A stretch of 60,307 bases of DNA. Origin: Bacilli bacterium. GTDB lineage: Bacteria; Bacillota_I; Bacilli_A; RFN20; CAG-826. The position numbers were made by a program, and so were the translations under genes. The notes below the pieces were generated by a model. That model saw only the letters and a list, made by a program, of their open reading frames with translations, had not been told where the DNA came from and did no database searches. The stretch covers positions 1-60,307 of the forward strand of contig JAFUEZ010000016.1 of the NCBI GenBank assembly GCA_017470115.1, written 5' to 3'. Each line of letters opens with the position of its first letter. Position 1 is the first letter of the stretch. This document shows positions 15,535 to 53,287 of the stretch, one piece after another.

Positions 15535-15546
15535 GTTGAAATTTAA

Positions 15547-15568
15547 GACATATTTGATAAAATATGTC
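15547..15568 (+). other. Stem-loop between gltX and tRNA-Glu
   Basis: GACATATTT, loop GATA, AAATATGTC forms a perfect 9-bp stem with no T-run, ending 6 nt before the tRNA. It could be a processing signal rather than a terminator. Confidence 0.4.
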
Positions 15569-15574
15569 ATACCT

Positions 15575-15651
15575 GCTCTGTTGGAGAAGCGGCTTAACTC
15601 AATGCCCTCTCAAGGCATCATTCATGGGTTCGAATCCCATACAGAGTACCA
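15575..15651 (+). tRNA. tRNA-Glu(CTC)
   Basis: 77 nt including an encoded CCA. The acceptor stem is GCTCTGT with ACAGAGT (one G-T pair). The anticodon stem-loop ATGCC-CTCTCAA-GGCAT puts CTC at positions 34-36. The T-arm is ATGGGTTCGAATCCCAT. A CTC isoacceptor is unusual for an AT-rich genome, where TTC normally reads both Glu codons. Confidence 0.9.
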
Positions 15652-15660
15652 AAATCTCTA

Positions 15661-15688
15661 AAATCCCTATTGAAAGATAGGGTTTTAT
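15661..15688 (+). terminator. Terminator after tRNA-Glu
   Basis: CCCTAT, 6-nt loop, ATAGGG, then TTTTAT, 13 nt after the tRNA CCA. Confidence 0.65.
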
Positions 15689-15752
15689 CTTGTATTTTAT
15701 AGGTGTCAAAGGGAAACCTCTTGATAGGGTGCCGTTTAGGTCCCACCAAACC

Positions 15753-15777
15753 GCGAGAGACAGTCTCGCTTTTTTAT
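15753..15777 (+). terminator. Terminator hairpin in the island boundary
   Basis: GCGAGA, loop GACAG, TCTCGC, followed by seven Ts. It has no intact gene directly upstream, which suggests that the gene it served has been lost. Confidence 0.6.
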
Positions 15778-15782
15778 TAAAT

Positions 15783-15929
15783 ATGAAAAAAATATTAAGT
15801 GTTTTTGTCGATGAAAGTGGTGATACAGGCTTTGAAAATGGGGCTTCAAATTATTATGTTGTATCACTTGTTTTTCATGAGCAAAATAATAATTTTTCAT
15901 CATATTTTGTGTTAGAGATATGCCTTTAA
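15783..15929 (+). pseudogene. DUF3800 protein remnant
   Basis: The 48 codons from the ATG at 15783 give MKKILSVFVDESGDTGFEN and following residues, the N-terminal signature of DUF3800 proteins (VDESG), which normally run to 200-250 residues. The frame ends after HEQNNNFSSYFVLEICL. A further piece resembling the family IIRxREG motif can be read in another frame at about 15932-15955, consistent with an internal deletion. DUF3800 genes are common in mobile and defence islands. An upstream in-frame ATG at 15690 lies before the terminator hairpin and is ignored. Confidence 0.7.
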
Positions 15930-15968
15930 AGCATTATTCGTGTTAGAGAAGGTTAAAGAACTAAATGC

Positions 15969-15999
15969 GACATTCTGATGGTATCGGGATGTCTTTTTT
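15969..15999 (+). terminator. Terminator after the DUF3800 remnant
   Basis: GACATTC and GGATGTC pair (one G-T) around an 11-nt loop, followed by six Ts. Confidence 0.6.
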
Positions 16000-16211
16000 A
16001 ATCCTTAATGGGTAAAACATTATGACGATAAAATTATGAGGCGTATTTTTTCACATAAAAAACTCATCAAAAAATACCTTTTAAAATTTCGCATTGCATA
16101 ACCAGCAACGCAACTATGAATCCGCTAATAGTTAGGGATTTTTATTCTTATAAGAATTTTTGTGGTTAAGTACCACTAAAATTTATAGAATTAAAAAAAG
16201 AGGTATTTGAT

Positions 16212-17246
16212 ATGCTTGATGATGCAAGACTAGAAAAATTAGAAAATCTATATGATAAGTATGATTCAGCCACAACTAAAAGTGAAAAAAGGCGTGTTCT
16301 AAATGAAATTCTTGAAATAGATCCAACTGATATTGACTCTATGCATCGTTTAGTGGATTTGCTTCCAGAAAAGCAACAACTTGATGCACTTTTAAAATTA
16401 AAAGAAGATGCTTGGCAAATTATCAAAAATAATTTTAATGATATCGAAGACCTATATTATGACCACGACACAAGACCATATATGTTTATTTTGATGGACT
16501 TATTAGAAAGATATGAAAGAAATAAAAAAGTAGAAGAGGCTTATCAAATAATTAAGGAAATGATGGAATTAAATCAGGGTGATAATTTAGGAGAAAGATT
16601 CCATCTTGTGGCTTATTATATTGGGCAAAACAAAATAAATGAATTAAGAGACTTTGTTAAAAATAGCCCAGAGAATTCTAGTGTCGCCTTAAGGTTTGCT
16701 ATTCTATATTTAGATAATCTTGCTAAAAAAGATAAAGAATTCAAATCACTATATGATGAATTTCCTTATTTATATGCCTTAATAGGCAAGGAATTATATT
16801 TTAAAAAATATCAATTTCAAAAAATAAAAGGTTTGATTAATTATTATCGTCCGGATGGATTTTTTGAATGTTTTCTTTTCTATGAGATGCTTATCACATA
16901 TTGTGATACTCTAACAATGTATTTGCTGCAGCATAAATGTGCTTACTATAAAGATATGCCAATAATATCAATTACCGAATCTTTACCAAGAAATACAAAA
17001 TCATATCTATTCGCTCTTGTTAATATATACGATGGGTCGTATAAAACTTTTTTGAAGAAATTAAAAGATTTTAATATAGAAGAAAAAGAGTTTTTAAAAG
17101 ATTATGAAAAATTAGAAAAAATGCAAATTCTAGAAAAAAGAGAAGATAAGATATGTTTTAGTGAAGCATCTTATGCATTATTAATTTATTATGTTAAAAA
17201 AGAAGAACAGACTCTAGATTATATAAAGGAAGTGATTGGTATTTAA
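16212..17246 (+). CDS. TPR-like protein (ST7-like repeats)
   Basis: 344 residues, helical, cytosolic. The block DTRPYMFILMDLLERY...EAYQIIKEMMELNQGDNLGERF follows the TPR pattern of the ST7-type repeat family seen in bacterial accessory genes. The N terminus (LYDKYDSATTKSEKRRVLNEILEIDPTD) looks like another repeat. The C terminus after residue ~290 is winged-helix-like but unassigned. AAAGAGG at 16197-16203 supports the start. It overlaps the region of the next gene by a shared TAA-TATG junction, so the two are coupled. Confidence 0.65.
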   Translation: MLDDARLEKLENLYDKYDSATTKSEKRRVLNEILEIDPTDIDSMHRLVDLLPEKQQLDALLKLKEDAWQIIKNNFNDIEDLYYDHDTRPYMFILMDLLERYERNKKVEEAYQIIKEMMELNQGDNLGERFHLVAYYIGQNKINELRDFVKNSPENSSVALRFAILYLDNLAKKDKEFKSLYDEFPYLYALIGKELYFKKYQFQKIKGLINYYRPDGFFECFLFYEMLITYCDTLTMYLLQHKCAYYKDMPIISITESLPRNTKSYLFALVNIYDGSYKTFLKKLKDFNIEEKEFLKDYEKLEKMQILEKREDKICFSEASYALLIYYVKKEEQTLDYIKEVIGI

Positions 17247-17247
17247 T

Positions 17248-17733
17248 ATGAATGAGAAAAATAAACAAAAAATAATCGATTTAAAATCTAAAGAAGAAGA
17301 AATGGATTATGATGCTTGGGTTGAAGAAATAAGCAAAGCAAATAACAAAATTATCGATGAATTCGAACAATTTTTAAAAACAGAAAAATTATCTAAAAAG
17401 ACAATTAATCGACATATTAATAATGTTGATACTTTTGCTAATTATTATTTAACTGACTATTCCTACTGTGGAACTATCTTTGATGGATATAAGTATTTCG
17501 GAGATTTTTTCGGTTATTGGCTTATAACAAAATATCTTGGAATTAGTAAATCCTTTATGATTGCGATGATTACCACGATGAAGGAATTTTATACTTTCTT
17601 ATTCCTAAAGGAATATATTGATGAAAATAGCTGTGCAGACGCTTTTGCGACTCTTACAGATGGTAAAGAAGAGCGGCTAGAACAACTTGAGATGTTCGAA
17701 AATGGTACATATTATTCCCAATTTCTTAACTGA
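17248..17733 (+). CDS. Integrase core-binding-domain-like protein without catalytic domain
   Basis: 161 residues. FLKTEKLSKKTINRHINNVDTFANYYL resembles the N-terminal SAM-like DNA-binding domain of tyrosine recombinases. None of the catalytic R-H-R-Y residues follow, and the protein ends at FENGTYYSQFLN. Proteins of this size and type occur beside TPR/SEC-C genes in other genomes, so it may be a domesticated stand-alone protein and not a truncation. The start at 17248 follows GGAAGTGAT; the 17236 alternative lies inside the preceding gene. What it binds is unknown. Confidence 0.55.
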   Translation: MNEKNKQKIIDLKSKEEEMDYDAWVEEISKANNKIIDEFEQFLKTEKLSKKTINRHINNVDTFANYYLTDYSYCGTIFDGYKYFGDFFGYWLITKYLGISKSFMIAMITTMKEFYTFLFLKEYIDENSCADAFATLTDGKEERLEQLEMFENGTYYSQFLN

Positions 17734-17875
17734 TAGGAGGAATAATTTGCTGATTATATTAATCTGATATAAAGGTAAAGATGGCAAAGCTAAAAAATTA
17801 TCAATGAAATGATATCTTCTTTCATTGTTATTGCATTGATAACTTTGTTTAAGAAAAAACGTATTTGATGTACCT

Positions 17876-17911
17876 AACGACTTTCTAGCCAAAGAAAGTC
17901 GTTTTGTTTTT
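17876..17911 (+). terminator. Rho-independent terminator
   Basis: An 11-bp perfect stem (AACGACTTTCT, loop AGCCAA, AGAAAGTCGTT) followed by TTGTTTTT. Confidence 0.85.
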
Positions 17912-18007
17912 AAACGAAAATATATTTATGAAACTAAGTCTATTATTGAAGTATTGCAATTGATGCATATATTTTTATATCCAATATTTTCCATGAAAAT
18001 AATTCAA

Positions 18008-18032
18008 ATCAACCCCCAAAAGTATGGGGGTT
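18008..18032 (+). promoter_or_regulatory. ATCAACCCCC motif and C5/G5 hairpin upstream of the receptor gene
   Basis: ATCAACCCCC at 18008-18017 is followed by AAAAGTAT and GGGGGTT, giving a 7-bp inverted repeat 25 nt upstream of the -10 box. The same decamer recurs at 18125-18134 and 20189-20198, around the same gene. A binding site for the LuxR-type HTH encoded next is an inference only. Confidence 0.35.
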
Positions 18033-18053
18033 CTATATGGTTAGTAGAAGTTT

Positions 18054-18062
18054 TGTTATAAT
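18054..18062 (+). promoter_or_regulatory. Extended -10 promoter, probably leaderless
   Basis: TG-T-TATAAT ends 8 nt before the ATG at 18071. No Shine-Dalgarno sequence separates them. Confidence 0.5.
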
Positions 18063-18070
18063 ATAACATC

Positions 18071-20185
18071 ATGGAAATAAAGACCTTCACGCTATCAATT
18101 GCTGTTTGCTCATTGATGTTATGTATCAACCCCCTTTCAATAAAGAGAGTTTATGCGACTGATTTAATTAATTCACGTTCTGAACTGATGAACGCCATCT
18201 CATATGCACATGATGGCGATATATTATATATAGATGATATAGATTTTACCAGCCACACTGATGGGGAATATAACCTCTATGAGAGGGTTGATATTAGAAA
18301 GAGTATCACAATTAGAGGCAAAGATTCTGGTTCGTTATTAACTAGAGGGAGTTTTAATATTATCGGTGGTAAAACCTATAATGATTTATTAAATGTCAGA
18401 TTTGAAAATATCAATTTCAAGTTATATGACAACAATAAAGGACTTACTTCTAGTGACTGGGATGACATCGCTAAAAGTCAGTACGCTACTTATTTTTCTG
18501 GCAATGTGAATGTTAGTTTCTTTAATTGCTCATTTAAAGGATACATGAACTATGAAGGTGGAGCGATGTTTGGGATGTATGGCGATTATAGCCAATTTGA
18601 TTATTATTTAGAAAAATATGGTGACCAAACATCATGCAAATTGAATGTTGATATAGAAAACTGTTCTTTTATTGATAACGCTTCGAGCCATGGTGGCGGC
18701 GCTTTATATTTTGAAGGATATGAAGATAATATCGCGGTTGATATTAAATCATCTTCTTTTAAAGAAAACATCGCTGGATTAGTTGGTTATAGTGGTAGAG
18801 GTGGAGGAGCCATTTATGGTTCAGATATCAAGTTAACGGCTAGTGATTCAACTTTTGATAGCAATATTGCTAACTACATCTATTCTGGAAATGAAGCGAC
18901 TGGTGACAGTACAAATGGTGGGGCGATTGCTTTATATAATTCGGAACTAGAATTAAATAATGTGATCATCTCTAATAACGTAGCTTCCTATGGAGGCGGT
19001 TTATATTTAGGCAATACAAATGGCAAGATTATTTCTACTTTAATTGATAACAATAAAGCGGACCGCTCCAGTGAAGAAGAAATATATCAAGGTAAATATG
19101 CAAACACCGAACTTGGTGGTGCAATGTATTTTGTCGGAAGCGGACACTCATTAAACATTTTAAATAGTCAGATTATTAATAATCTTTCAAATAATGTTTA
19201 TTCCGGTATTGCTCATCCAGTGATTTTTACTGATAACGATGTTAGTAACATCAAGATATATTACTCAATTTACGCGAATAAACCTTCTTTAGCGGATACT
19301 TTTGTTTTTGATTTTGATCCTCCTGATGATGTTTTAGCTTATCGATCTTTTGATATCAAAGCTTCTCTTATTTTGGATGAAATCTATGAAGAGGCATTTT
19401 CAAGAAACGAGATCCCTTCTATTGATAATGGCTTTAATCTGCTATCTAGTATCACTAAAGGGAAAAATGAAGGAATTATTAAAGAAGATAATAATGGTGA
19501 CTACAAGGTAGATGCATCTAAATTATCTAGTTATATTGTGCCTAAAGAAATCTTAAACGACATATTTGGGGAAAAAGCTAATTTATTTAATAACGTCTCT
19601 TTAGGAACAAGTTTCTCTAAAAAGGTGAATATCAATATTCATGATAAAGGTGAAGTAATTGATACGATTAGCGCCCATTTCTTAGATGAAATAGTGTTAA
19701 CGCCAAGAGAGGGCAATCTTTTTAATTCTTTTGTTAATTATGTTGATGACTCGCATAATGTTTACGAAGACAAAATCATCATCATTAACCAAAGTGACAT
19801 TAATCTATATGCCCAATACGAGAAAACTGGTGCGTTCTATTTCTTAGCAGTCGGTCTTCCTCTTATTGTAATGGGCGTCATCGGAATTAGCGTTTTAATA
19901 TTTATCATTTTATATCGAAAAAAGATTAGAAATAGCAAGAAAGAATCTATTGTTTTTAGCGATAAAAATATCGAAAAATTTATTTCCGCTTATAGCGATG
20001 TATTAACTGATAAAGAAAAAGAAATTACCACCATGATCTTAAAAGGTAAGAAGCGCGATGAGATCGCAAATGAGTCATTTATTAGTAAATCCACTGTCAA
20101 AACGCACATCAATCATATCTATAGCAAACTTAACGTTCTCAGTAGAGAAGATTTCTTGAACCTTGTAAGAGAAACAATCAAATAA
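18071..20185 (+). CDS. Transmembrane one-component regulator: secreted beta-helix, TM, LuxR-type HTH
   Basis: 704 residues in four parts. Residues 1-29 are a signal peptide ending VYA. Residues ~35-400 form a right-handed beta-helix of the polymorphic-repeat kind: GGGALYFEG, GGGAIYGSD, NGGAIALYN and YGGGLYLGN recur, each followed by a short strand and Asn/Asp turns. Residues ~515-585 resemble an InlB-type B repeat ending NLYAQYEK. One membrane helix spans ~589-616. The cytosolic tail (642-704) is a GerE/LuxR HTH: LTDKEKEITTMILKGKKRDEIAN then SKSTVKTHINHIYSKL. Extracellular sensing coupled directly to DNA binding is inferred from topology. Two lipoprotein genes follow. Confidence 0.85.
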   Translation: MEIKTFTLSIAVCSLMLCINPLSIKRVYATDLINSRSELMNAISYAHDGDILYIDDIDFTSHTDGEYNLYERVDIRKSITIRGKDSGSLLTRGSFNIIGGKTYNDLLNVRFENINFKLYDNNKGLTSSDWDDIAKSQYATYFSGNVNVSFFNCSFKGYMNYEGGAMFGMYGDYSQFDYYLEKYGDQTSCKLNVDIENCSFIDNASSHGGGALYFEGYEDNIAVDIKSSSFKENIAGLVGYSGRGGGAIYGSDIKLTASDSTFDSNIANYIYSGNEATGDSTNGGAIALYNSELELNNVIISNNVASYGGGLYLGNTNGKIISTLIDNNKADRSSEEEIYQGKYANTELGGAMYFVGSGHSLNILNSQIINNLSNNVYSGIAHPVIFTDNDVSNIKIYYSIYANKPSLADTFVFDFDPPDDVLAYRSFDIKASLILDEIYEEAFSRNEIPSIDNGFNLLSSITKGKNEGIIKEDNNGDYKVDASKLSSYIVPKEILNDIFGEKANLFNNVSLGTSFSKKVNINIHDKGEVIDTISAHFLDEIVLTPREGNLFNSFVNYVDDSHNVYEDKIIIINQSDINLYAQYEKTGAFYFLAVGLPLIVMGVIGISVLIFIILYRKKIRNSKKESIVFSDKNIEKFISAYSDVLTDKEKEITTMILKGKKRDEIANESFISKSTVKTHINHIYSKLNVLSREDFLNLVRETIK

Positions 20186-20188
20186 AAA

Positions 20189-20198
20189 ATCAACCCCC
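20189..20198 (+). promoter_or_regulatory. Third ATCAACCCCC motif, upstream of the lipoprotein pair
   Basis: Identical to the decamers at 18008 and 18125. It stands 4 nt after the receptor stop codon and 76 nt before the first lipoprotein ATG. The C5 tract is conspicuous in this AT-rich sequence. Confidence 0.3.
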
Positions 20199-20273
20199 TA
20201 TATTTATAGAGGCCGATATAAATAAAATCCTATTTTTGCTACTTTATTCTTAAGGGAATATAGGAGGTTTAAT

Positions 20274-21002
20274 ATGAAAATTAATAAGTTCCTTTTGGTT
20301 GGTTTGCTCTTGAGTACATTCTCATTATCTGCTTGTGATTTAAGTAGTTTAATCAATGATTCTGGTAATGATAATGATGATGAAAATACCGATGTCGGCG
20401 GTGATTCAAATGGTAATACCGGTGGCAATAGTTATGATGATTCCATCTTTGATGAAAGCGAATCTCTTGAAAAGTTAATTGCCTATGGCAAAAACACTGG
20501 TTTTGAAATCACCACAAAAGTCACAGCGGCTGACGGAACCAATGACGAAATGACTTTAGCCATGAAAGGCAACCTCTGGTGGCATATTAATAGCGATGGT
20601 TCTGGTACTGGTTATCGTTTAGAAAATGGCAAATGCGCGATGCTTAGTTATGATGAAGGTACTTGGTCTGTTTTCATTCCTAATGTTGGTGAAACACAAT
20701 TTGAAGCGATGTTTGAAGGTATATCAAATTATTTATATAAAGCTAATGGCTACTTCGCAAATGAAGGTTTTACATTTGATAGTAATGGTAAATATGCCGG
20801 TAGAGATGTTTTAAAGTTCAAATATGAGCGTACAGTTGGTTGGGTTAGTGTTAAACATGATTACTATGTTGATAAAGATTTAGGTATCTCCCTTTATCAA
20901 TACGCCGAAACCACAAACGAAAGTGAAAAAGATTGGGCTAAATTAGAAACAACATCATTTAAATCTGGTAATGATGTCACTCCAATTACAATTGCTGAAT
21001 AA
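20274..21002 (+). CDS. Lipoprotein, possible LolA/LppX-like fold
   Basis: 242 residues. The signal peptide ends in the lipobox LSAC (Cys21), so it should be anchored to the outer face of the membrane. A low-complexity Asp/Asn/Gly linker covers residues ~28-60. The rest is a single beta-rich domain (EITTKVTAADGT, MKGNLWWHINSDG, DVLKFKYERTVG) whose pattern recalls lipid-binding LolA/LppX-type proteins, but this is only a resemblance. AGGAGGTTTAAT precedes the start. It is placed after the beta-helix receptor, suggesting it may be a partner or target. Confidence 0.75.
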   Translation: MKINKFLLVGLLLSTFSLSACDLSSLINDSGNDNDDENTDVGGDSNGNTGGNSYDDSIFDESESLEKLIAYGKNTGFEITTKVTAADGTNDEMTLAMKGNLWWHINSDGSGTGYRLENGKCAMLSYDEGTWSVFIPNVGETQFEAMFEGISNYLYKANGYFANEGFTFDSNGKYAGRDVLKFKYERTVGWVSVKHDYYVDKDLGISLYQYAETTNESEKDWAKLETTSFKSGNDVTPITIAE

Positions 21003-21019
21003 CTTTTAGGTCAAAATAC

Positions 21020-22156
21020 ATGAAAAGAAAACTATTATTAGTAGCTTCTTTGTTTTTAACATTGGGCGTTATCGGCTGCAGTGGTCCAAAATCAGATCAA
21101 AGTGATAGTGGTTCAACGCCTAGTTCTGAACCGAATTCTGATACGAATAATGACAGTTCGATTGACGATAAAACCGCTGATAAAGAAACATTGAAATCAG
21201 AAGAAGAAATTAAAACAGCTATTGGGGACATTTTTAAAATAAGTGCTGATTCACTTCCTGGAGGAACTTCTTCAACTTCCGCTAGTGATGGAACGTATCA
21301 CTATTATTCATCATTAGTTAGAACGGGTTTTTATAAGAAGATTGGTGATAAGTTTTATCAATACACTAAACAGAGTGGCAGTGCTAAATACAATAGATTA
21401 GCAGATCCTGTCACTGGCCTAAATGTCATTGGTAGAGATAATGTTGGTGGTTTATTTATGTATGCTGGTTGTGAAATATCATATAAAAGCAAAGAAAATG
21501 TGACATTTTTAAACCGTCAATGCACGAAATATCTTTATGAAAATAATAACGCAATGGGATATAACCAAGAATTTAAAGAAGAAATTATCATAGATAATAT
21601 AACTGGAGCGTGTTTCAAACACGAAGCGCATGGTGTGGCTTCAGATGGTTTTACTGGTTCAGGCGCTAAAGAAAACTTCCAAATTACCGAATTCATTTTA
21701 GGTAATGATGCCCAAACATACGTTAATAATCTATTAGAAAATGTTGATATTTATGAATGGGATACTTCGTTTTTAAACCAAATAGGTTTAAGCAATGTTA
21801 TTCAACCTAACTTTGAACTCTTTGAAAGTGAATGGGATGATAGTAAGCGCACCGATGAAGAGGCGTTATGGCACGTACAATATTTAAATCGAGTCAATAA
21901 AAAAGATGGCGTTGACGCTGTTAAAAACATTATGCAAGCTTTTTATAATGCAGGGGCAAAATTAGATGAAGAAGGAAATGTTTCCTCCAGTTATGATGTT
22001 GCGCCAATCTATTACGATAACTTAGAAGATAATGATAGTCTTTATTTTAGTGCACATATTCAAAGCCACCCAACTTTAGGAGTTAGAATTAACGCTGATT
22101 ATATAAATGCCACTAATTATTGGAGAATAGATTTTGATATTGGCTACATAGATTAA
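21020..22156 (+). CDS. Lipoprotein, unknown function
   Basis: 378 residues with a signal peptide and lipobox VIGC (Cys20). A Ser/Asp/Asn-rich linker follows up to residue ~50. The body is beta-rich and shares general layout with the preceding lipoprotein (threaded sequence on fit to a residue state, then ENNNAMGYN, EEIIIDNITGACF). The C-terminal ~120 residues form a separate domain (FELFESEWDDSK onward). No family is recognised. It begins 17 nt after the first lipoprotein and lacks a strong ribosome-binding site, so it is probably co-transcribed. Confidence 0.75.
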   Translation: MKRKLLLVASLFLTLGVIGCSGPKSDQSDSGSTPSSEPNSDTNNDSSIDDKTADKETLKSEEEIKTAIGDIFKISADSLPGGTSSTSASDGTYHYYSSLVRTGFYKKIGDKFYQYTKQSGSAKYNRLADPVTGLNVIGRDNVGGLFMYAGCEISYKSKENVTFLNRQCTKYLYENNNAMGYNQEFKEEIIIDNITGACFKHEAHGVASDGFTGSGAKENFQITEFILGNDAQTYVNNLLENVDIYEWDTSFLNQIGLSNVIQPNFELFESEWDDSKRTDEEALWHVQYLNRVNKKDGVDAVKNIMQAFYNAGAKLDEEGNVSSSYDVAPIYYDNLEDNDSLYFSAHIQSHPTLGVRINADYINATNYWRIDFDIGYID

Positions 22157-22247
22157 TCTTCTAACATATTTCAGCAAGAGTTATGAACTTGTGTGAAGGG
22201 CACGAGATTGTATCAAAATTGATCTAAGGTTCCATATTGAAACAACA

Positions 22248-22278
22248 AGCCTAATAAGATTTTGTATTAGGCTTTTTT
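22248..22278 (+). terminator. Terminator of the receptor-lipoprotein region
   Basis: A 9-bp stem (AGCCTAATA and TATTAGGCT) with an 8-nt loop, followed by TTTTTG. Confidence 0.85.
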
Positions 22279-22345
22279 GATCTTTATAAAATAATTAATT
22301 TATTCCAATAACTACTAAATAATAGTAGTAACCGGAGGATATTAT

Positions 22346-22618
22346 ATGATTAAGACTATTGATATGTTGACTTATGAATATCTTAAATATTCTAATATTT
22401 ATAACAAAATTGCATATGAAGAAAAGAATAATAATATAATCAAATTAAAAAGAGGATTGTATGAAATGGATAAAGATGCTGATCCTATTACAATCGCTAA
22501 TGCATTATTATCACTATCATATATTTTTTTTGAGACTGCTTTAGCATATTACGGAATGATACCGGAAAGAGTGTATGCTATAAAATCGGCTACATTCATA
22601 TTGATTGAATTAGATTGA
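22346..22618 (+). pseudogene. Truncated AbiEi-type antitoxin
   Basis: The 90 residues match the start of AbiEi family antitoxins of type IV toxin-antitoxin systems: an N-terminal wHTH (IIKLKRGLYEMD), then LSYIFFETALAYYGMIPERVYAIKSATF. Intact proteins continue for ~100 residues with the C-terminal antitoxin domain. Here the frame ends in ILIELD right after the conserved KSATF. No AbiEii toxin gene follows. CCGGAGGATATT supports the start. It is a remnant in the decaying island. Confidence 0.75.
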
Positions 22619-22857
22619 TACAATGTTTCAGTCAGTATTTTATGGTTCCAATCCCACCATAGGTCTTTTATACAAAAATAATACCAAAAGTAAGCTGTTT
22701 AGCCGAAATTCTAGGCGCTTTTTTATTTTCTCTTGAAGTTTGTGGTGACGAAAGATATTTTTTATTTTTTTAAGATTTGTACTCGGATATTTTTCTCCAA
22801 CTATATATTGATTATGTGTATAAAATATGTATAATGTGTATAGAAGGAGTTGATATT
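22619..22857 (+). other. Intergenic, island debris and relB promoter
   Basis: It holds a T-arm-like GGTTCCAATCC at about 22645 that does not fold into a tRNA, and a weak hairpin (GCC...GGCGC) followed by TTTTTT at about 22710-22725 that may terminate. Then comes the relB promoter: TTGATT (22808-22813), 16-nt spacer, TATAAT (22830-22835). The direct repeat ATGTGTATA occurs on both sides of the -10. Confidence 0.4.
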
Positions 22858-23127
22858 ATGGCTAAAATTAATACTAATATATCTATAGATGCGAATTTAA
22901 AAAAAGATGCGGTATCTTTATTTAATGATTTTGGATTAGATTTATCTACAGCTATAACTTTATTTTTACAACAATCAGTAAGAGAACAAAGAATTCCCTT
23001 TGAAATAAAAAAAGAAATACCTAATAAGGTTACTAAAGCAGCATTAGATGAATATGAAGAAATGAAACAAAATAAAGATAAATATAAAAGATATAATTCA
23101 TTTAAAGATATTTTGGATGAAGTATAG
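22858..23127 (+). CDS. RelB/DinJ family antitoxin
   Basis: 89 residues. TNISIDANLKKDAVSLFNDFGLDLSTAITLFLQQSV is the ribbon-helix-helix dimer and DNA-binding unit of RelB/DinJ antitoxins. The C-terminal part that would wrap the toxin is charged (YEEMKQNKDKYKRYNSF). The ATG at 22858 follows GAAGGAG and has a complete promoter 23 nt upstream; the upstream in-frame start overlaps that promoter. Its toxin partner, just downstream, is frameshifted, so the antitoxin may now be an orphan. Confidence 0.88.
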   Translation: MAKINTNISIDANLKKDAVSLFNDFGLDLSTAITLFLQQSVREQRIPFEIKKEIPNKVTKAALDEYEEMKQNKDKYKRYNSFKDILDEV

Positions 23128-23397
23128 TGTTAACGATTGTTAGATCTAATAGATTTTTAAAAGATTTAAGATTAGCCAAAAAAGAGGATTAGATTTATCT
23201 TTATTAGAAGAAGTTGTTAATAAACTTGCAAATCAAGAAAAATTAGATGAAAAATATCATGACCATCTTTTATCAGGAGATTATTCTGATTTTAGAGAAT
23301 GTCATATAAAACCAGATTGGTTATTAGTTTATACAATTGATGATGAAGAATTAGAATTGTTCCTATTTAGAACAGGTAGTCATTCGGATTTATTTTA
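23127..23397 (+). pseudogene. Frameshifted YafQ-type mRNA interferase toxin
   Basis: A GTG start overlaps the relB stop. The first 21 codons read VLTIVRSNRFLKDLRLAKKED then stop. In the next frame the protein continues as GLDLSLLEEVVNKLANQEKL, KYHDHLLSGDYSDFRECHIKPDWLLVY and FRTGSHSDLF, covering the YafQ catalytic His and Asp residues. The break sits in a run of six As at 23178-23183, where seven would restore the frame. It may be a true inactivation or a homopolymer sequencing error. Confidence 0.8.
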
Positions 23398-23657
23398 ATA
23401 TTTAGTTTAATTTATTTATTTTTGAATTAATAAATAATATAAGGTTAATACAGAAATGTGTTAGCCTTTTTCTTCGTTTGAATTGTACTTATATAATTGT
23501 TATTTCCCAATAAGTAAAATTTATTGACTCATAAATGAAATTTTGTGAAAAATTGAGCAGATTAAGTGCATTAATTAATAATTATTATATAATTATTTAT
23601 TCTGAAGTTCAAAAATTTGAATTTCAGTTCTTAATTAAATTAAAAAAAGGAGAATTT

Positions 23658-35275: not shown

Positions 35276-38269
35276 ATGGACAATTTTAGAATCTTAGGCT
35301 GGGAAATTGTTCCTGGCTACGACCTTGCTGAAGTAGCTTGGTGGATTGCTGGAATTATTGCTGGAGTCGCAGTATTAATCGCAGCAGCCGTCTTTGCTTT
35401 ACTTTATTTCCTCAGTTGGAGAAGAATGTCTCCAGAAGAAAGACAAGCTTTCAAGGAAACAAAAAAACAAGCAAAGAGTATTAAAAATAGGTCTGAAAAG
35501 GCTGAATTCGTTAAAGGACAAAGTGCTCCTACAAGAGCAATGTTAGGTTGGTCAAGAGCAAAACCAATCGTCATTCCTATTTTCTCTGTCATTACAGTTA
35601 TTTCAATGCTTGCTGGCCCTATCCTTTATACATGGGGTGGTGCATTATGGGCAACTTTATTCTATACAGATAAAGTTAACTACGATGAAGTTACAGAGCT
35701 CGCAATGAAAGAAGCGACAGAAAACGTCATTACAATTGAAGAAGAAGGTATCGTTTTAATGAGAAACGATGATAATATCCTTCCACTTGATAAATCAAAA
35801 CCTCTCAACATCTTCGGTATGAACGCCAATAATATGTTCTTAGGAGGTGGTGGATCAGGCGAATTTGCTCAAGATTACACATATTCAAACGGTAAAGTTT
35901 TAAAGAGTGTTAAATTCTATGAAGCTATGGAAGAAGAAGGTTTCACATATAATCCTTATTTATTGAACCTTTGCAAAAACTACTCATCAGGAAATAACGT
36001 CTCTATTGCAGATAGCAACGTAAGATTACATGCCTCAATCGCTACATTTGGAACCACAGGTAGATACGAAGGTATTCAAGGAAAATTCTTACCATATGAA
36101 CACGAACCACCAAAGAGCGCATATGAAAGAGCATTCGATCAAATCGAAGGCAAAACTTTATTAAATTATTCAAAAGAATATAGTGACACTGCTATTTTCT
36201 GTATTTCACGTTATGGAACTGAGCAATACGACTTACCATTTACTCAAGATTCACAACGTTTTGACCAATTAACTCTCTCACAAACTGAAAGAGATTTACT
36301 TGGAATGATTACTGAAAACTTTGAAAAGGTAGTCGTTTTACTCAACACTCCTGGACCAATGGATATTACTCCACTCGATGAATTTGGTATTAAAACAGTT
36401 TTATTCGTCGGTAGTCCTGGTTTAACTGGTACAAAAGCTATTGCTAGAGTACTTTCTGGACAAGTTAACCCATCAGGTAGACTTGTTGACACATGGCCTG
36501 TTGATTTAAAAAGTAATCCAACTTATGAAACATTTGGAACAAGATCAACAAGATATTCAAGTGGTGGTGCCACCTACAACTTCTCAAATTACTATGAAGG
36601 CATCTATGTTGGTTATAGATATTACACAACAAGAGCATTAGTAGATGAAGACTTTGATTATGATGAACAAGTTAGATATTCATTCGGACATGGTTTATCA
36701 TATACAAACTTCAACGTTTCTTTACATGATTATAAGATTGATCAAGCAGAAGGAACTGGTAAATTAACTGTTCAAGTTAAAAACGTCGGTGATGTTGCTG
36801 GTAAATATGTTATTGAAGCTTATCATAAAGCTCCATATTATGCAGATCATGGTATTGAAAAATCAGAACGTAATTTACTTACATATTTAAAAACAAACCT
36901 CATTGCTCCAAATACAGAAGAAACATATGAACTTAATTTCAAATTAAGAGATATGGCAAGCTGGGACAATGCTAATGCATGTTACGTCTTAGAAAAAGGC
37001 GATTACGAAATTGCTATTAGAGATAATTGCTGGGATTTATCAGTTGATAGTATTCATGGCAAAGAAAATAAATTTACATTCAATTTAGCAAACGATATCG
37101 TCTACGATAAGTCATATCAAACAGGCGCAGAATATAAGAACTTATTCGCCGATATGGAATTTGGTGGAAATGCTGAAAAATTAACTTACTTATCAAGAAA
37201 CGATTTTGAAGGCACATACACAAAGAACGCTGACGTCAATAAAGTTTGGTCTGGAACTGGTAAAGTTAATAACAATACTCTTCCAAGTAAAACTTATACT
37301 GATGGGCAAGTTGAATATGAAGATTTCGAATTAGACGCAATCTTAGATGAAGAAATTACACTTCACGATATGAAAGATGCTGCTTGGGACGATCCAAGAT
37401 GGGATGATTTCTTAAGTCAATTATCACTTAATGATATGAAGAATCTTGTCGCTAATGGAAACTTCGCAACTCCAAGAATTGCTTCAATCAAAAAGCCTGA
37501 AACACTTGAAGGCGATGGTCCTGCATCATGCTTCAATTCTGGTACTGGTCATCCATGTGGAACAATGTTAGCTTCAACTTGGAACAATAATGCTGCTGTT
37601 CTTTTTGGAGAATCATGTGGTAAAGAAGGTGCTGCTTCTGGTTTAACTGGTTGGTATGCTCCTGGTATGAATATCCATAGATCACCATATGCTGGTAGAA
37701 ACTTCGAGTATTATTCTGAAGATCCATTAATCTCAGGTAATATGGGTGGTTATGTTGCTAAAGGCGCTCTCAAATATGGTGTCTATACATTTGCTAAACA
37801 CTTTGGTTTAAACGAACAAGAAACAAATAGAGGTGGTTTAAACGTTTGGTGTAGTGAACAAGGCATTAGAGAAATCTACTTAAAGCCATTTGAAATCTAT
37901 TCAGATTTAGGTGGAATTGGAATGATGACAGCATTCAGCCATATGGGTACAACATGGGCTGGTGCATCTAAAGCACTTTGTACAGATCTTTTAAGAACAG
38001 AATGGGGCTTCCATGGTTCAGTTATTACTGACTATAACAACTCAAATATGCCATGTTCAGGTGGTTTAAGAGCTGGTAACGATGAATGGTTAATTCCTGC
38101 AATGACTGGTTCAGGTAACTTAAACGGCGCATATAATCAAGCTCCAAAAGATATGAAATACTGGTTAAGAGTTGCTTCAAGAAATATTCTTTATTCAGTT
38201 GCTCATTCAAATTCAGCATGGGACGATGCAGATTTCGAAGCAGTCGGAATCCAAAACCCAAGAAGTTAA
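35276..38269 (+). CDS. Membrane-anchored GH3 glycosidase with swapped domain order
   Basis: 997 residues. Two hydrophobic helices lie at ~18-45 and ~95-120, separated by a charged loop. The GH3 C-terminal-type alpha/beta domain comes first (EEGIVLMRNDDNILPLD, residues ~155-380), then an Fn3-like domain (RYSFGHGLSYTNFN...VKNVGDVAGKYVIEAY). The (beta/alpha)8 barrel comes last (LSLNDMKNLV...YSEDPLISGNMGG, KHFGLNEQETNR), with nucleophile Asp919 in SVITDYNNS. Reversed order is known for some ruminal beta-glucosidases. Expected to hydrolyse beta-glycosides at the cell surface. The esterase gene 23 nt downstream is probably co-transcribed. Confidence 0.92.
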   Translation: MDNFRILGWEIVPGYDLAEVAWWIAGIIAGVAVLIAAAVFALLYFLSWRRMSPEERQAFKETKKQAKSIKNRSEKAEFVKGQSAPTRAMLGWSRAKPIVIPIFSVITVISMLAGPILYTWGGALWATLFYTDKVNYDEVTELAMKEATENVITIEEEGIVLMRNDDNILPLDKSKPLNIFGMNANNMFLGGGGSGEFAQDYTYSNGKVLKSVKFYEAMEEEGFTYNPYLLNLCKNYSSGNNVSIADSNVRLHASIATFGTTGRYEGIQGKFLPYEHEPPKSAYERAFDQIEGKTLLNYSKEYSDTAIFCISRYGTEQYDLPFTQDSQRFDQLTLSQTERDLLGMITENFEKVVVLLNTPGPMDITPLDEFGIKTVLFVGSPGLTGTKAIARVLSGQVNPSGRLVDTWPVDLKSNPTYETFGTRSTRYSSGGATYNFSNYYEGIYVGYRYYTTRALVDEDFDYDEQVRYSFGHGLSYTNFNVSLHDYKIDQAEGTGKLTVQVKNVGDVAGKYVIEAYHKAPYYADHGIEKSERNLLTYLKTNLIAPNTEETYELNFKLRDMASWDNANACYVLEKGDYEIAIRDNCWDLSVDSIHGKENKFTFNLANDIVYDKSYQTGAEYKNLFADMEFGGNAEKLTYLSRNDFEGTYTKNADVNKVWSGTGKVNNNTLPSKTYTDGQVEYEDFELDAILDEEITLHDMKDAAWDDPRWDDFLSQLSLNDMKNLVANGNFATPRIASIKKPETLEGDGPASCFNSGTGHPCGTMLASTWNNNAAVLFGESCGKEGAASGLTGWYAPGMNIHRSPYAGRNFEYYSEDPLISGNMGGYVAKGALKYGVYTFAKHFGLNEQETNRGGLNVWCSEQGIREIYLKPFEIYSDLGGIGMMTAFSHMGTTWAGASKALCTDLLRTEWGFHGSVITDYNNSNMPCSGGLRAGNDEWLIPAMTGSGNLNGAYNQAPKDMKYWLRVASRNILYSVAHSNSAWDDADFEAVGIQNPRS

Positions 38270-41359: not shown

Positions 41360-43366
41360 ATGAAACATTATGATGTATTTCTTTCCTGGACAGGAAATGA
41401 TAGAGACCTTAAAAATAAAATAAGAGAGGTTTTAGAAAAACATAATTTTCCTTGCTACGATAGTGATCGAGATTGTAGAGGAGATTATAGTGAAAATTTC
41501 GCTATTAGTTTAGATAATAGTGATGTTTATTTTTTGATTTTAACTAATTCTCTTTTTAAAGATCCTTATTTAAAAAAGGGCGAAAGATTTTCACTTGTTA
41601 GAAAAGAATTACGCTACGCAAGTGATTTAGAAGCATTAGGAAAATTAAATTTTGTTATTTTTTCTACAGTAATTGATAAAAAATCTTTATCTACTAATAT
41701 AGAAAAATTTTATGCTGCTCATACAGCAGGATTTCATAAAATTTATTTTGATGTTAGTCTTGATGATTTAGAAGAAAAGGTTGAAGATTTGCTTAAAGAA
41801 GTAGATGAATTTATTAGAAATAGAAAAGAAGGTCATCCAATTCCTAGTGTTCAACCTGAACTTCCTATAATGCGCGATACAATTATTGATACTTCTGTTA
41901 AATTTGTTGGTCGTGAAAATGAAGAAAAAGAAGTACTCGATTCTTTTAATGATAATAGAGTAATTATTTTAGAAGGATTAGGTGGGATAGGTAAAACAGA
42001 ATTTGCTAAAAAAGTTTTACAAGAATCAAAATATATTACGCCTCAAATCATCACATTTGGTGATGAAGAAATACCTACTTTAGAAAACTTAGTTTATAAA
42101 ATCAAATATCCTAAAAAAGTGTATGAAGTTACACCAACTTTAGATGAACAAGGAAGAACAAATTATTTATTATCAATATTAAAAAAACTCGATGATAATG
42201 TTATTTTGCTTCTTGATAATGTTAATTCGCTTAATACAAGTTTTATATATTCTTTGCTTACTAATTTTTCTTGTCGCTTTTTAATTACTACTCGAGTTGA
42301 TACATCTTTTTTCCCTAATATTAAAGAAGTTAAGAAAATGGTTATTTCTAAATTATCTTTAGAAGAAGTTAAAACTATTTTTGAAAATTATTATGGAAAG
42401 CTAACTAAAGAAGAAGCAGAAGATTTTGAAGAATTAATATATTCAAAATATTCAGGAAATACACAAGCAATTATTTTAATTGCTAAGATGCTTTTTGAGC
42501 ATGGCGTCTCGCTAAATGAATTTTATGAAGCAAGTGAAGAATATTTAAAGAATAATTATGTAAGTGCTTCGCTTCATAACATTGATAATTTTGAACCTAT
42601 TTCTAATGTCTTATCAGAATTCTTTAAAATTACTAAATTCTTAGAAAGTAGTGAAGTAATTAAAGACATCTTACGCATTATGATCATAATTGAATATTTT
42701 GGTATTAAAGAAAAAGATTTAAAAGAGATGTTAGGCATTAAAAGTAGTAATGAAATTATAGTTCTAGCTAAAAACGGGTTAATAAAGCGAGTCAACATAA
42801 ATGGAATTTATTATTTATATATGCATTCAATTATTTCTGAATCATTAGTACTTAATGGACTTCTTCCTAGTAAAGAACAAATAGAACTTTTAAGAAAACA
42901 TATTTTAAGTCGACTTGATGAAGAAGATGTTAATAGCAGTAGAGATATAGATTCTTTACAAGAAGTATTAATTAAATTAGTGAAATTTAAAAATGCTGAT
43001 AATGATGGTAAAACTTTTGATTCAATAAGTAGTGAAAAAGACCCACGCTACACATATAATCTAGATAAAACAGATATTTTAGATATTTTACTTGATGAAA
43101 ATAATTCTGATCCAATATTTTTAAGTAATGGCAGCAAAACAGTTGCTTTTGATCAAATTGCTGTAATTCCTTATGAAGAAGAAATATATTGCATATTAAA
43201 ACCACTTGAAGAAATTCCTGGCGTCGGTAAACACGATGCGGCTGTGTTTTATGTTAAAGAAGGAGAAGGCGACACACCAACTCAACTCATTGCAGTAAGT
43301 GATGAAAAAAAGGCAGTGGCTGTTTTTAAAGAGTATTATCGTCTTATAATAGAAGCAAATAAATGA
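41360..43366 (+). CDS. TIR-NB-ARC (STAND) protein with DUF1292-like C terminus
   Basis: 668 residues. The TIR domain (1-150) opens with YDVFLSWTGND and has Glu83 in VRKELRYA, the position of the NADase Glu. The NTPase follows FVGRENEEKEV: Walker A GLGGIGKTE (206-214), Walker B VILLLDN (281-287), and FLITTRVD as an RNBS-B/sensor motif. A winged-helix region covers ~425-505. The last ~80 residues (DPIFLSNGSKTVAFDQIAVIPYEEE and onward) resemble the small beta-rich DUF1292 protein. The C terminus of STAND proteins is usually the sensor. Antiphage NAD depletion on activation is inferred from family knowledge. Confidence 0.9.
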   Translation: MKHYDVFLSWTGNDRDLKNKIREVLEKHNFPCYDSDRDCRGDYSENFAISLDNSDVYFLILTNSLFKDPYLKKGERFSLVRKELRYASDLEALGKLNFVIFSTVIDKKSLSTNIEKFYAAHTAGFHKIYFDVSLDDLEEKVEDLLKEVDEFIRNRKEGHPIPSVQPELPIMRDTIIDTSVKFVGRENEEKEVLDSFNDNRVIILEGLGGIGKTEFAKKVLQESKYITPQIITFGDEEIPTLENLVYKIKYPKKVYEVTPTLDEQGRTNYLLSILKKLDDNVILLLDNVNSLNTSFIYSLLTNFSCRFLITTRVDTSFFPNIKEVKKMVISKLSLEEVKTIFENYYGKLTKEEAEDFEELIYSKYSGNTQAIILIAKMLFEHGVSLNEFYEASEEYLKNNYVSASLHNIDNFEPISNVLSEFFKITKFLESSEVIKDILRIMIIIEYFGIKEKDLKEMLGIKSSNEIIVLAKNGLIKRVNINGIYYLYMHSIISESLVLNGLLPSKEQIELLRKHILSRLDEEDVNSSRDIDSLQEVLIKLVKFKNADNDGKTFDSISSEKDPRYTYNLDKTDILDILLDENNSDPIFLSNGSKTVAFDQIAVIPYEEEIYCILKPLEEIPGVGKHDAAVFYVKEGEGDTPTQLIAVSDEKKAVAVFKEYYRLIIEANK

Positions 43367-43422
43367 TAATTAAAAATGAGACAACTATATTTAATATAAT
43401 TAAATTTATATATCTAAAGATT

Positions 43423-43513
43423 ATGGAGACCTTTATGACCTTTTAAAATAATTGATCCGTTAGTTCCTGAAAGTGAATATAAGCCAGAATATTTTTTGTT
43501 TAATGAGGAATAA
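43423..43513 (+). pseudogene. Short ORF with an apparent one-base frameshift
   Basis: ATG GAG ACC TTT ATG ACC TTT TAA stops at 43446. Skipping one T at TTTTAAAA gives KIIDPLVPESEYKPEYFLFNEE before a stop at 43513. The second part reads as a sensible peptide tail. Whether this is a dead gene, programmed frameshift or chance cannot be told from sequence alone. Confidence 0.25.
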
Positions 43514-43525
43514 AGAAAATACAAT

Positions 43526-44440
43526 ATGATTATCTATAAATATTTGAATGAAAATGGAGCTTTAAAAACGATTAAAAACGGTTGTGTTTTGCTTAGGCAC
43601 CCAATTGAATATAATGATCCTTTAGATTCAATTGTTTATTGTTCTCAAAAAATACATGATAACACTTTTAAACTTATAAAAAATTATGCTTTGTTTACAC
43701 ACTTAAAAAGTCTTTTTGATAATAACGTTAAAGACCCTATTACTCGAATACCAGGATTAAAAATGCAAATTAACAGCATTGACAAAAGCATTAAAAAGGA
43801 TGGTCTTTATACTTATATGCCATCAATTGAATTTTTTATTAAGCAAAAAAAAGAACCTTTAAGAAGTTTCATTGAATCTAATAAAAAGAATTATAAAAAA
43901 CAAATTGATAAAGTTTTTAAAGATATTAAGCATAAAGTTTTGATTTCTTGCTTTAGCTTGGATCCCTATAATTTTTTAATGTGGTCACATTATGCAGATA
44001 AGCATAAAGGTGTTTGCTTAGAATATGAAATTGATGATAATGATAAAGTTTTTAAAAAAGTAAAGTATTATAAGCAAATTCCTGATTTTGATTTATACAA
44101 GTATGAAGAACTAGATTTAGCAAGAGCATACAATAATGCTTCTAATGAAATATTTAGCAAGATTGAAGATGTTTTATATAAACCTTTTATATCTAAAGGA
44201 TTATGTTGGAAATACGAAAAAGAAATTAGAATCATCGTAAGTGATGATGAGAGAATGAAGTCTTTATATAGTGATAATAAAGGGAATTATTTTTATAAGA
44301 TGCCTAAGATCAAAAGAATATTTGTTGGATGTGAAGCCAGTGAATCTTTAATTAATGAATTAAAAGAAGTTGCAGGCGATATTCCGTTTACAAAAATGAA
44401 GTTAAAAAATGGAGAATATGATTTGGAAAGGTTTGATTGA
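43526..44440 (+). CDS. DUF2971 family protein
   Basis: 304 residues, soluble. YKYLNENGALKTIKNG at the start, SCFSLDPYNFLMWSHYADKHKGVCLEYEI in the middle and KEIRIIV toward the end are the hallmarks of DUF2971. The family is widespread in defence islands and phage-related loci; its fold suggests a link to ADP-ribosyl-type chemistry, but activity is unproven. The ribosome-binding site is weak (GAGG is 17 nt away). It stands alone between the TIR-NB-ARC gene and the type I restriction operon. Confidence 0.85.
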   Translation: MIIYKYLNENGALKTIKNGCVLLRHPIEYNDPLDSIVYCSQKIHDNTFKLIKNYALFTHLKSLFDNNVKDPITRIPGLKMQINSIDKSIKKDGLYTYMPSIEFFIKQKKEPLRSFIESNKKNYKKQIDKVFKDIKHKVLISCFSLDPYNFLMWSHYADKHKGVCLEYEIDDNDKVFKKVKYYKQIPDFDLYKYEELDLARAYNNASNEIFSKIEDVLYKPFISKGLCWKYEKEIRIIVSDDERMKSLYSDNKGNYFYKMPKIKRIFVGCEASESLINELKEVAGDIPFTKMKLKNGEYDLERFD

Positions 44441-44569
44441 ATTTAGCCAGATTTAAATAAATTTGATTTATAAAATTATTAACCTAACAAAAGAAATAAA
44501 TAATGCGATTTTAATCGCCTATATGGTAGAATTTAATAAATAAATTCTATTATTTTATGGAGAAATATT

Positions 44570-46123
44570 ATGCCAGTTAATAATGAACGAGAAGAATTAC
44601 ATAGAGCCATTTGGAAAATTGCGGATGATTTAAGAGGAAGTGTTGATGGATGGGACTTCAAACAATATATTTTAGGTGTAATGTTTTACCGTTACATTTC
44701 AGAGTATTTAGAAAAATACATTAACTCTAATGAATATGAAAGTGGCAATACATCGTTTTCTTACGCAAAGTTAGATGATGAACAAGCAGAGACAATTAGA
44801 AATGAAATGGTAAATGATGTTGGCTTTTTTATTCTTCCAAGTGAATTATTTTGCAATGTTAGAGAAAGAGCAAAGACTGATGAGAATCTTAATGAAACTT
44901 TAGAAAGAGTATTTAAAAATATTGAAGAATCAGCTAATGGAACAAGTAGTGAAAACGATTTTAAAGGCCTTTTTGATGACATCGATGTTAATTCCAATAA
45001 ATTAGGTTCTACCGTTGCTAAAAGAAATGAAAAACTTGTTAAAGTTCTCAATGGAATTGGTGGAATGAATCTTGAATATTCAAACAATAATAAAAATGAT
45101 GCATTTGGCGATGCTTATGAATATTTGATGTCAATGTATGCTTCAAATGCAGGTAAAAGTGGTGGAGAATTCTTTACTCCTCAAGAAGTCTCTGAACTAT
45201 TAATGAGACTTGCTACAGTAGGTAAGACTGAAGTTGATGGTGTTTATGATCCTGCTTGTGGCTCTGGTTCTTTACTCTTAAAAGCTGAAAAAGTTTTAGG
45301 TAGAGGAAAAGTTAGACGTGGTTTCTTTGGCCAAGAAATCAATATTACAACCTATAACCTTTGTAGAATTAATATGTTCTTGCATGGTGTAGGTTTTGAT
45401 AAATTCAATATCGCTTGTGAAGATACTTTAATTTCTCCTCAACACTGGGATGATGAACCATTTGAAGTAATTGTTTCTAATCCTCCATATTCAATTAAAT
45501 GGGCTGGGGATGAGAATCCATTATTAATTAACGATCCTCGTTTTGCTCCTGCCGGGATTTTAGCTCCTAGAAAGAAAGCAGATATGGCATTTATTATGCA
45601 TTCTTTGTCGTGGCTAAAAACAAATGGAACAGCAGCTATTGTTTGTTTTCCTGGAATTATGTATAGAGGAGGAGCGGAGCAAAAAATTAGAAAATACTTG
45701 GTTGACAATAATTTTGTTGATTGTATTATTCAACTTCCTGATAACTTATTTTTTGGCACATCAATTGCCACATGTATTACGGTTCTTAAGAAAAATAAAG
45801 TAGATACAAATGTTTTATTTATAGATGCTTCTAAAGAATTCTTAAAAGTTACAAATAATAATAAATTAGAAGATAAGAATATTGACAACATTGTTAAATA
45901 TTTTACTGATAGATCAGATTTAGAATATATAGTTAAAGTTGCACCTTATGAATTAGTAAAAGAAAATGACTATAACTTATCTGTATCAACTTATGTTGAA
46001 AAAGAAGACACAAGAGAAAAGATTGATATTGTTAAATTGAATAAAGAAATTGATGAGATTGTTGCTAGAGAAGAAGTTCTTAGAACAGAAATTAAAAAGA
46101 TTATTGAAGAGATAGGTGATTAA
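44570..46123 (+). CDS. hsdM: Type I restriction-modification methyltransferase subunit HsdM
   Basis: 517 residues. The N-terminal helical HsdM domain ([35 protein letters not shown]) precedes the N6-adenine methyltransferase core, with SAM motif [18 protein letters not shown] and catalytic [25 protein letters not shown] is the usual linker. It methylates host sites as M2S1. It begins the six-gene operon 44570-53287, in which gaps never exceed 5 nt. TGGAGAAATATT precedes the start. The N terminus resembles type IC enzymes, in line with the HsdS repeats. Confidence 0.96.
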
Positions 46124-46128
46124 TTCAA

Positions 46129-46785: not shown

Positions 46786-46786
46786 T

Positions 46787-52908: not shown

Positions 52909-52909
52909 T

Positions 52910-53287
52910 ATGAAAAATAGAATTATTATTTCAATCAATCCAGAATATGTTGAGAAAATTCTTTCTGGCGCAAAGAAATTTGAATATAGAACTAAAGCTG
53001 CAAAAAAAGATATTGATAAAATTATTATCTATGAAACAACTCCAATTAAAATGGTTGTGGCAGAAGCTGAAATTTTAGATGTATTAATAATGAAGCCTAA
53101 TGATTTATGGGAACATACAAAAGAATATTCAGGTATTAGTAAAGATTTTTTTGATGAATATTTTAAAGGCAGAAGTATTGCGTATGCTTATAAAATTGGA
53201 AAAGTTACGAGATATCCTGAACCAATTGAATTATCAAAATATGGCATTAAATCTGCGCCTCAATCTTTTATATATTTAAAGAGTTAA
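52910..53287 (+). CDS. Stand-alone ASCH-domain protein
   Basis: 125 residues. NRIIISINPEYVEKILSGAKKFEYRTKAAKKDIDKIIIYETTP is a typical ASCH opening, including the GxKxxEyR motif at residues ~19-26. RYPEPIELSKYGIKSAPQSF closes the barrel. ASCH proteins bind RNA or modified nucleotides, and some are nucleases or amidohydrolases. It follows the fusion gene by one nucleotide and is the last gene of the hsd operon. It may be the partner or regulator of the PIN fusion. Confidence 0.85.
   Translation: MKNRIIISINPEYVEKILSGAKKFEYRTKAAKKDIDKIIIYETTPIKMVVAEAEILDVLIMKPNDLWEHTKEYSGISKDFFDEYFKGRSIAYAYKIGKVTRYPEPIELSKYGIKSAPQSFIYLKS

Follow-up and report, generated by a model that had tools for sequence, protein, structure and literature searches.

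A probable one-component regulator joining an exported beta-helix to a LuxR-type HTH in one family of Bacilli

Introduction

The beta-helix is a fold of enzymes, adhesins and phage tailspikes, and beta-helices of the type considered here frequently bind polysaccharides. Can such a domain, placed outside the cell, also serve as the input of a transcription factor within a single polypeptide? This question is raised by one gene of the window, by which we mean the whole stretch of 60,307 nucleotides that was analysed. Its product had been predicted to be a one-component receptor in which an exported beta-helix is joined to a cytosolic LuxR-type HTH. The sequences analysed are MAGs, and "family" and "genus" are used here as labels of the search tool. 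Going by the names of its relatives' records, the host bacterium probably comes from the gut of a ruminant (rumen).

Domain architecture of the receptor

The receptor gene is a single uninterrupted ORF of 704 codons, as had been predicted, and not two separate genes. Its parts are as follows.

18071..20185, + strand: receptor gene, 704 aa, with signal peptide, beta-helix, one TM helix and GerE HTH
18071..18157, + strand: signal peptide, aa 1-29 (sequence; hydropathy)
18158..19186, + strand: right-handed beta-helix ectodomain, aa 30-372 (AF2; Foldseek/VIA)
19187..19825, + strand: membrane-proximal ectodomain, aa 373-585, less conserved and poorly modelled (AF2); the place of a claimed InlB-like repeat
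19826..19912, + strand: single transmembrane helix, aa 586-614 (AF2; hydropathy)
19913..19996, + strand: basic juxtamembrane linker, aa 615-642, with 32-39% identity in two full-length orthologues
19997..20182, + strand: GerE/LuxR HTH with dimer helix, aa 643-704 (Pfam; AF2; PDB alignment)

Read from its sequence, the N-terminus is signal-peptide-like, with a cleavage-like site between VYA and TD. Using a shallow alignment of only four sequences, AlphaFold2 (AF2) modelled residues of about 30-370 as a right-handed beta-helix, mostly at pLDDT 70-95. We found by VIA-align that this region resembles a PL6 alginate lyase (Z 24.1), the pneumococcal adhesin PfbA (Z 21.4) and the Lactobacillus reuteri SRRP (Z 20.9), the likeness to polysaccharide lyases being one of fold matches only. 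Z values of 20-24 over 234-293 residues place it in the pectate-lyase-type right-handed beta-helix fold. The predicted GGGA-type repeats are borne out by the modelled beta-helix and by GG[GA] turns at residues 163, 208, 244, 283, 308 and 349, and Pfam adds a Chlam_PMP repeat (3.4e-5) and, below its threshold, Pectate_lyase_5 at residues 37-145. The InlB-like repeat was not recovered: PF09479 (Flg_new/InlB, List_Bact) has no match to the receptor at E<=1, and residues of about 515-583 have low pLDDT.

The AF2 helix at 587-620 contains the TM segment, which is centred near residue 605 and immediately followed by RKKIRNSKK. Because this basic stretch follows the TM segment and the chain has an N-terminal signal, the positive-inside rule would place the HTH in the cytosol. 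GerE (PF00196) matches residues 643-694 at 2e-14, with 53.4 bits against a curated cut-off of 23.5, and the helices at 647-657, 662-668, 673-686 and 692-703 are all present at pLDDT of about 80-90 (AF2), the last being the dimer helix. In the PDB alignment the receptor has the recognition-helix TVKTH in common with 4wsz/4wt0. The signal peptide, single TM helix and full GerE/LuxR HTH of the original prediction are thus confirmed by sequence, hydropathy, Pfam and AF2. Neither a receiver domain (PF00072) nor an autoinducer-binding domain has a Pfam match at E<=1, the N-terminal part being the beta-helix. A single chain carries both the TM segment and the DNA-binding domain and has no two-component domains; this anatomy supports the description of the protein as a one-component receptor.

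Relatives, distribution and selection

Full-length orthologues are present in two other species (L034, 56% identity; L035, 55%), and a third genus (RGIG4495, roe-deer omasum; L036) has a partial receptor, the 3′ part, that is 93% identical. The full-length orthologues, the partial receptors L036 and L010 and the diverged relatives L011, L014, L033 and L013 (23-33% identity) agree in their domain order, from an exported beta-helix-like part through a TM segment to GerE. PF00196 scores 44-60 bits in the relatives. Loss of the dimer helix or of the contact residues in homologues had been named as the observation that would speak against the prediction; we looked for it and saw no broken HTH among the receptor relatives found.

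A search at the level of the taxonomic order matched the whole receptor tail at ten loci, which belong to nine genomes of six genera, all in one family. In evenly drawn samples of 395 genomes of the class and 392 of the phylum, no strong tail match had the beta-helix/TM/GerE build, in a tail-based search that could miss members with a very different tail; the strong matches are ordinary response-regulator-, MalT- or multi-TM-type proteins. Strong tail matches in viral contigs likewise included no such protein. The suggestion that the same TM-HTH tail would be found with varying ectodomains did not hold, since all full tail matches with a known ectodomain are beta-helix-like and all full-length relatives found keep an ectodomain of this type, although very diverged (23-33% overall). 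In L011, L014 and L033 the N-terminus carries, as read from sequence, a lipobox-like motif (LSSC, VTGC and NTGC) instead of a type I signal cleavage site. These ectodomains may therefore be doubly anchored, by a lipidated N-terminus and the TM segment.

Across the receptor comparisons dN/dS is 0.05-0.18. Between the window and L034 the identity is 63% for the beta-helix, 66% for GerE, 41% for the TM segment and 32% for the linker, and in the two full-length orthologues together the beta-helix (62-63%) and GerE (66-68%) are best conserved, with the TM segment and linker at 32-41%. GerE has a dN/dS of 0.09 between the window and L036, and both beta-helix and GerE have 0.05-0.06 between L034 and L035. 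Since orthologues in other genera share the domain order and are under purifying selection, we take the receptor to be a fusion of exported beta-helix and cytosolic GerE HTH and consider a chance or frameshift fusion excluded. It is also very improbable that the protein is a surface adhesin whose C-terminal HTH is accidental or decaying, with regulation lost. The beta-helix does resemble the PfbA and SRRP adhesins and the gene is sporadic, being present in 1 of 26 congeners; however, few parts are as well conserved as GerE (dN/dS 0.06-0.09), and the HTH is retained even at 23-33% overall identity (PF00196 at 1e-11 to 1e-16).

Adjacent lipoprotein genes

Two lipoprotein genes follow the receptor gene.

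20274..21002, + strand: lipoprotein 1, 242 aa, the conserved next gene and a candidate target
21020..22156, + strand: lipoprotein 2, 378 aa, elsewhere seen only in the RGIG4495 locus (L036)

Lipoprotein 1 is the next gene in the window, L034, L035, L036 and L010 (60-91% identity, four aligned), and a relative stands in divergent orientation next to the L011 receptor (L083). By profile search, 224 family genomes contain about 23 strong members of this protein family. The AF2 model of lipoprotein 1 has a pLDDT of 44.7, and neither the best Foldseek match (LolA, E 4e-3) nor VIA (Z no higher than 5) makes a LolA/RseB-like fold more than a lead. Homology of lipoproteins 1 and 2 was considered and is unsupported (best cross-match E 0.02). 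The third genes in receptor relatives encode large secreted proteins, several with List_Bact repeats (clear PF09479 matches).

Most lipoprotein 1 relatives found have no adjoining GerE regulator. Others do: in another family one lies beside a multi-TM LuxR (L087), and at L159, L161 and L164, which are one lineage and therefore count once, the neighbours are a 7TM protein, a histidine kinase and a NarL-type response regulator. Because some relatives adjoin other GerE regulators in this way, the regulatory front ends seem to be exchangeable on a common lipoprotein output. The L159, L161 and L164 cassettes are very similar across three genera and form a parallel to the beta-helix cassette.

Candidate operators

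Just upstream of both the receptor gene and the next (lipoprotein) gene, in the window and in orthologues, we observe the dyad ATCAACCC-N13-GGGTTGAT. The regulatory features of the locus are as follows.

17876..17903, + strand: intrinsic-terminator-like hairpin that parts the receptor gene from the upstream gene
18008..18036, + strand: candidate operator 1, ATCAACCCCCAAAAGTATGGGGGTTCTAT, before the receptor gene, with a perfect left half-site and 5/8 matches in the right one
18057..18062, + strand: TATAAT, a -10-like hexamer of the receptor promoter, ending 40.5 nt from the dyad centre
18125..18133, + strand: third ATCAACCCC copy, within the 5′ coding sequence of the receptor gene
20189..20217, + strand: candidate operator 2, ATCAACCCCCTATATTTATAGAGGCCGAT, before the lipoprotein 1 gene
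22247..22274, + strand: terminator-like hairpin that closes the receptor-lipoprotein unit

AAATCAACCCCC occurs in both intergenic regions concerned, the one preceding the receptor gene and the one preceding its neighbour. It is the GC-richest word of at least 10 bases shared among the intergenic regions of the window (462 comparisons), and orthologues at 55% protein identity retain this motif at both places. The dyad, a motif noticed post hoc, is found in 7 of 7 aligned promoter regions with the half-site spacing constant at 21 bp; none of 2000 shuffles gave as good a score in the seven regions. At this spacing the right arm matches at 5-8 of 8 positions in every region, and other spacings give means of 3.6 or less. 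Judged by NarL-type sites, half-sites 21 bp apart do not simply fit one GerE dimer. Upstream of the receptor genes of L034 and L035 there are six half-sites, spaced by 20-21, 43, 20, 72-73 and 21 bp, which lie near one helical phase in both orientations; random arrangements were as good with frequencies of 0.0007 and 0.005 at these two loci, which are not independent.

Genome-wide searches with up to three mismatches show that the dyad is nearly private to the receptor loci, whose sites rank first in the orthologue genomes. The only perfect dyad in each of G139, G143 and G144 precedes the lipoprotein gene, and the only dyad with one mismatch in G139 and G144 precedes the receptor gene (the G143 contig begins inside that gene). 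In G181 the lipoprotein-side dyad ties for the best genome match. In the 1.41-Mb genome of the window (G000), ATCAACCCC has 4 copies, 3 of them in the receptor locus (18008, 18125 and 20189). The dyad evidence is weaker in this genome because both locus sites, whose right half-sites are degenerate (5/8), are only among six three-mismatch matches and tie with four unrelated ones. The predicted link between the receptor and the adjacent lipoprotein gene gains support from this nearly genome-unique dyad, which lies upstream of both genes and is conserved in orthologues.

The L014/L033 receptor branch offers a natural control. Its recognition helix reads SENTIKRDL, versus SKSTVKTHI in the branch of the window, and the ATCAACCC-N13-GGGTTGAT dyad is absent from it. 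These loci bear TACCCAWATGGGTA about 50 nt before the receptor start codon and a copy with one mismatch before the next gene, and each genome has only one further match. G181 carries both receptor types, each with its own motif. The ATCAACCC-type dyad was not seen before the L083 and L084 receptors. At L084:2783-3000, a perfect 10-bp dyad, ATGTCGCAGT-N13-ACTGCGACAT, lies upstream of a short (460 aa) beta-helix receptor; it may be an operator or a terminator and was left out of the dyad count.

Dyads can also be terminators, RNA hairpins or sites of another factor, in which case the receptor would regulate something else. The lipoprotein-side dyad of L034 and L035 does resemble an intrinsic terminator (A-tract, stem, T-tract), and on the minus strand both window dyads have terminator-like scores. 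We nevertheless think this unlikely: the six half-sites before the L034 and L035 receptor genes lie near one helical phase in both orientations, the dyad is nearly absent elsewhere in the genome, no Rfam family is over threshold, and the other receptor branch bears a different motif at the same places.

Promoter geometry and direction of regulation

The receptor-lipoprotein unit (18071-22156) is bounded by the two terminator-like hairpins. A -10-like hexamer lies 40.5-41.5 nt from the dyad centre in only 5 of 7 promoter regions, and from this distance the dyad centre would fall near -48 and its inner arm would adjoin or overlap the -35 region, which would be a usual activator position for the GerE domain family. 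The transcription start of the receptor gene is predicted to fall almost at the ATG, so that its mRNA may be near-leaderless.

Given a candidate site near -48 that adjoins or overlaps -35, the tethered receptor most likely acts as an activator. The position of operator 1 is common to activators and repressors, and the HTH could instead block both promoters until ligand removes it. Such a tethered repressor would have to stay docked at its sites, however, and the characterised 12-TM LuxRs activate (PMC9734109); we give repression only a small chance.

Genomic setting and mobility

The receptor gene lies downstream of gltX and tRNA-Glu(CTC), and L034 and L035 are at the same place. The content downstream of these genes differs in almost every congener, and the position looks like an insertion hotspot. 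Congener cargo after gltX and tRNA-Glu(CTC) (15535-23534 in the window) comprises type I restriction genes, phage-like genes, secreted proteins and others. Receptor identity to L036, of a different genus, is 93%, as against 69-93% for gltX within the genus, which suggests recent horizontal transfer of the receptor locus.

A 165-aa ORF at 17236-17733 has a weak match to the N-terminal SAM-like tyrosine recombinase domain (XerD, 6e-5), without the catalytic domain, and is a possible integrase remnant beside the cassette. At 22346-23127 we observe a short ORF related to a longer congener protein (L178) and apparently truncated, together with a RelB-type antitoxin (PF04221, 3e-11) for which no partner toxin gene was identified in this interval. 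Farther away, 41360-58534 holds a defence-like cluster with a TIR/NB-ARC protein, type I restriction-modification genes (HsdM, HsdR) and a 1002-aa protein that weakly matches NPHP3_N/AAA, and 35276-38269 encodes a GH3-type protein with permuted domains, the C-terminal model at 159-447 and the N-terminal at 748-921.

Mechanism

Taken from sequence and prediction, the receptor is probably a transmembrane one-component regulator whose sensor is the beta-helix and whose targets are its own gene and those of surface proteins next to it, its HTH presumably binding the dyad. The exported beta-helix would be held at the outer face of the membrane by the one TM helix and would recognise a ligand of the surface or the environment; judged from the fold, this ligand is probably a glycan. 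A change of dimer state, or of position, could carry the signal inward, and GerE, still tethered, would bind ATCAACCC-N13-GGGTTGAT both before the receptor gene and before the lipoprotein gene or operon that adjoins it.

Regulated proteolysis, which is reviewed for membrane-bound regulators in PMC7593790, would alter only the final step. The beta-helix would then be a sensor or adhesin, and a signal or shedding would lead to site-1/site-2-type cleavage that frees GerE to reach the same two promoters. A single TM segment and a short, basic, poorly conserved linker are compatible with such release. Yet no cleavage motif was identified in the receptor, no protease gene is conserved beside it, and targets that adjoin the receptor gene suit a tethered factor, so release is an improbable variant compared with regulation by the tethered protein.

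With somewhat less assurance than for the receptor itself, we favor on balance a reading in which the receptor belongs to a regulator family not described before: a pectate-lyase-type beta-helix sensor, predicted to be doubly anchored in some relatives, with branch-specific and near-private operators, would control itself and adjacent lipoproteins or giant secreted proteins, in exchangeable cassettes.

Comparison with known regulators

ToxR and CadC have the opposite polarity, with an N-terminal OmpR-type winged helix and a C-terminal exported domain. The receptor differs from them in its N-terminal exported domain and C-terminal GerE, but all are single-TM one-component regulators, and ToxR and CadC act while tethered (PMC5430869, PMC6320335).

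The idea that a membrane-tethered LuxR HTH is without precedent does not stand, since 12-TM LuxRs (PMC9734109) and transmembrane transcription regulators (TTRs; PMC10269533) are known. DadR, HcdR and CadR of Eggerthella lenta are 10-12-TM LuxR regulators that activate neighbouring genes and, like the receptor, have a membrane N-terminal sensor and a C-terminal GerE HTH in one chain with adjacent targets (PMC9734109). They are polytopic and have no exported domain, unlike the receptor with its signal peptide, beta-helix and one TM helix. TTRs are a recognised class with an enrichment in certain gut bacteria and a slight one in Bacilli, and the receptor fits their general definition as given there; among common extra domains the main text names two-component and Y_Y_Y domains and no beta-helix (PMC10269533).

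SusR of Bacteroides and SusR-like proteins, with topology compared from PMC3878776 only, share with the receptor an exported sensor, a membrane anchor and a cytosolic HTH. We also count as a likeness that SusR is tied to polysaccharide genes and to predicted, widely spaced binding boxes (67-77 bp apart; PMC3878776). It belongs to a different phylum, however, and its DNA-binding domain has no significant similarity to other known regulators (PMC3878776). PL6 lyases, PfbA and the L. reuteri SRRP share the ectodomain fold but are enzymes or adhesins without a DNA-binding domain.

Our literature search, of incomplete coverage, found nothing relevant on a beta-helix/LuxR or beta-helix sensor/HTH protein. 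We regard the receptor as a variant of a known regulator type, because its plan is alike but it lacks a defining feature of the 12-TM LuxRs and of ToxR/CadC. Membrane-tethered GerE regulators are already known; the beta-helix/one-TM/GerE build looks new and confined to one family of Bacilli MAGs.

As the input of a one-chain transcription factor, a beta-helix would give a Gram-positive lineage a very short route from surface polymer to gene expression. Since each branch seems to have a private operator with its target next door, receptor, operator and promoter could be moved together to a laboratory host, where the ligand could be found and one-pass signalling to GerE studied.
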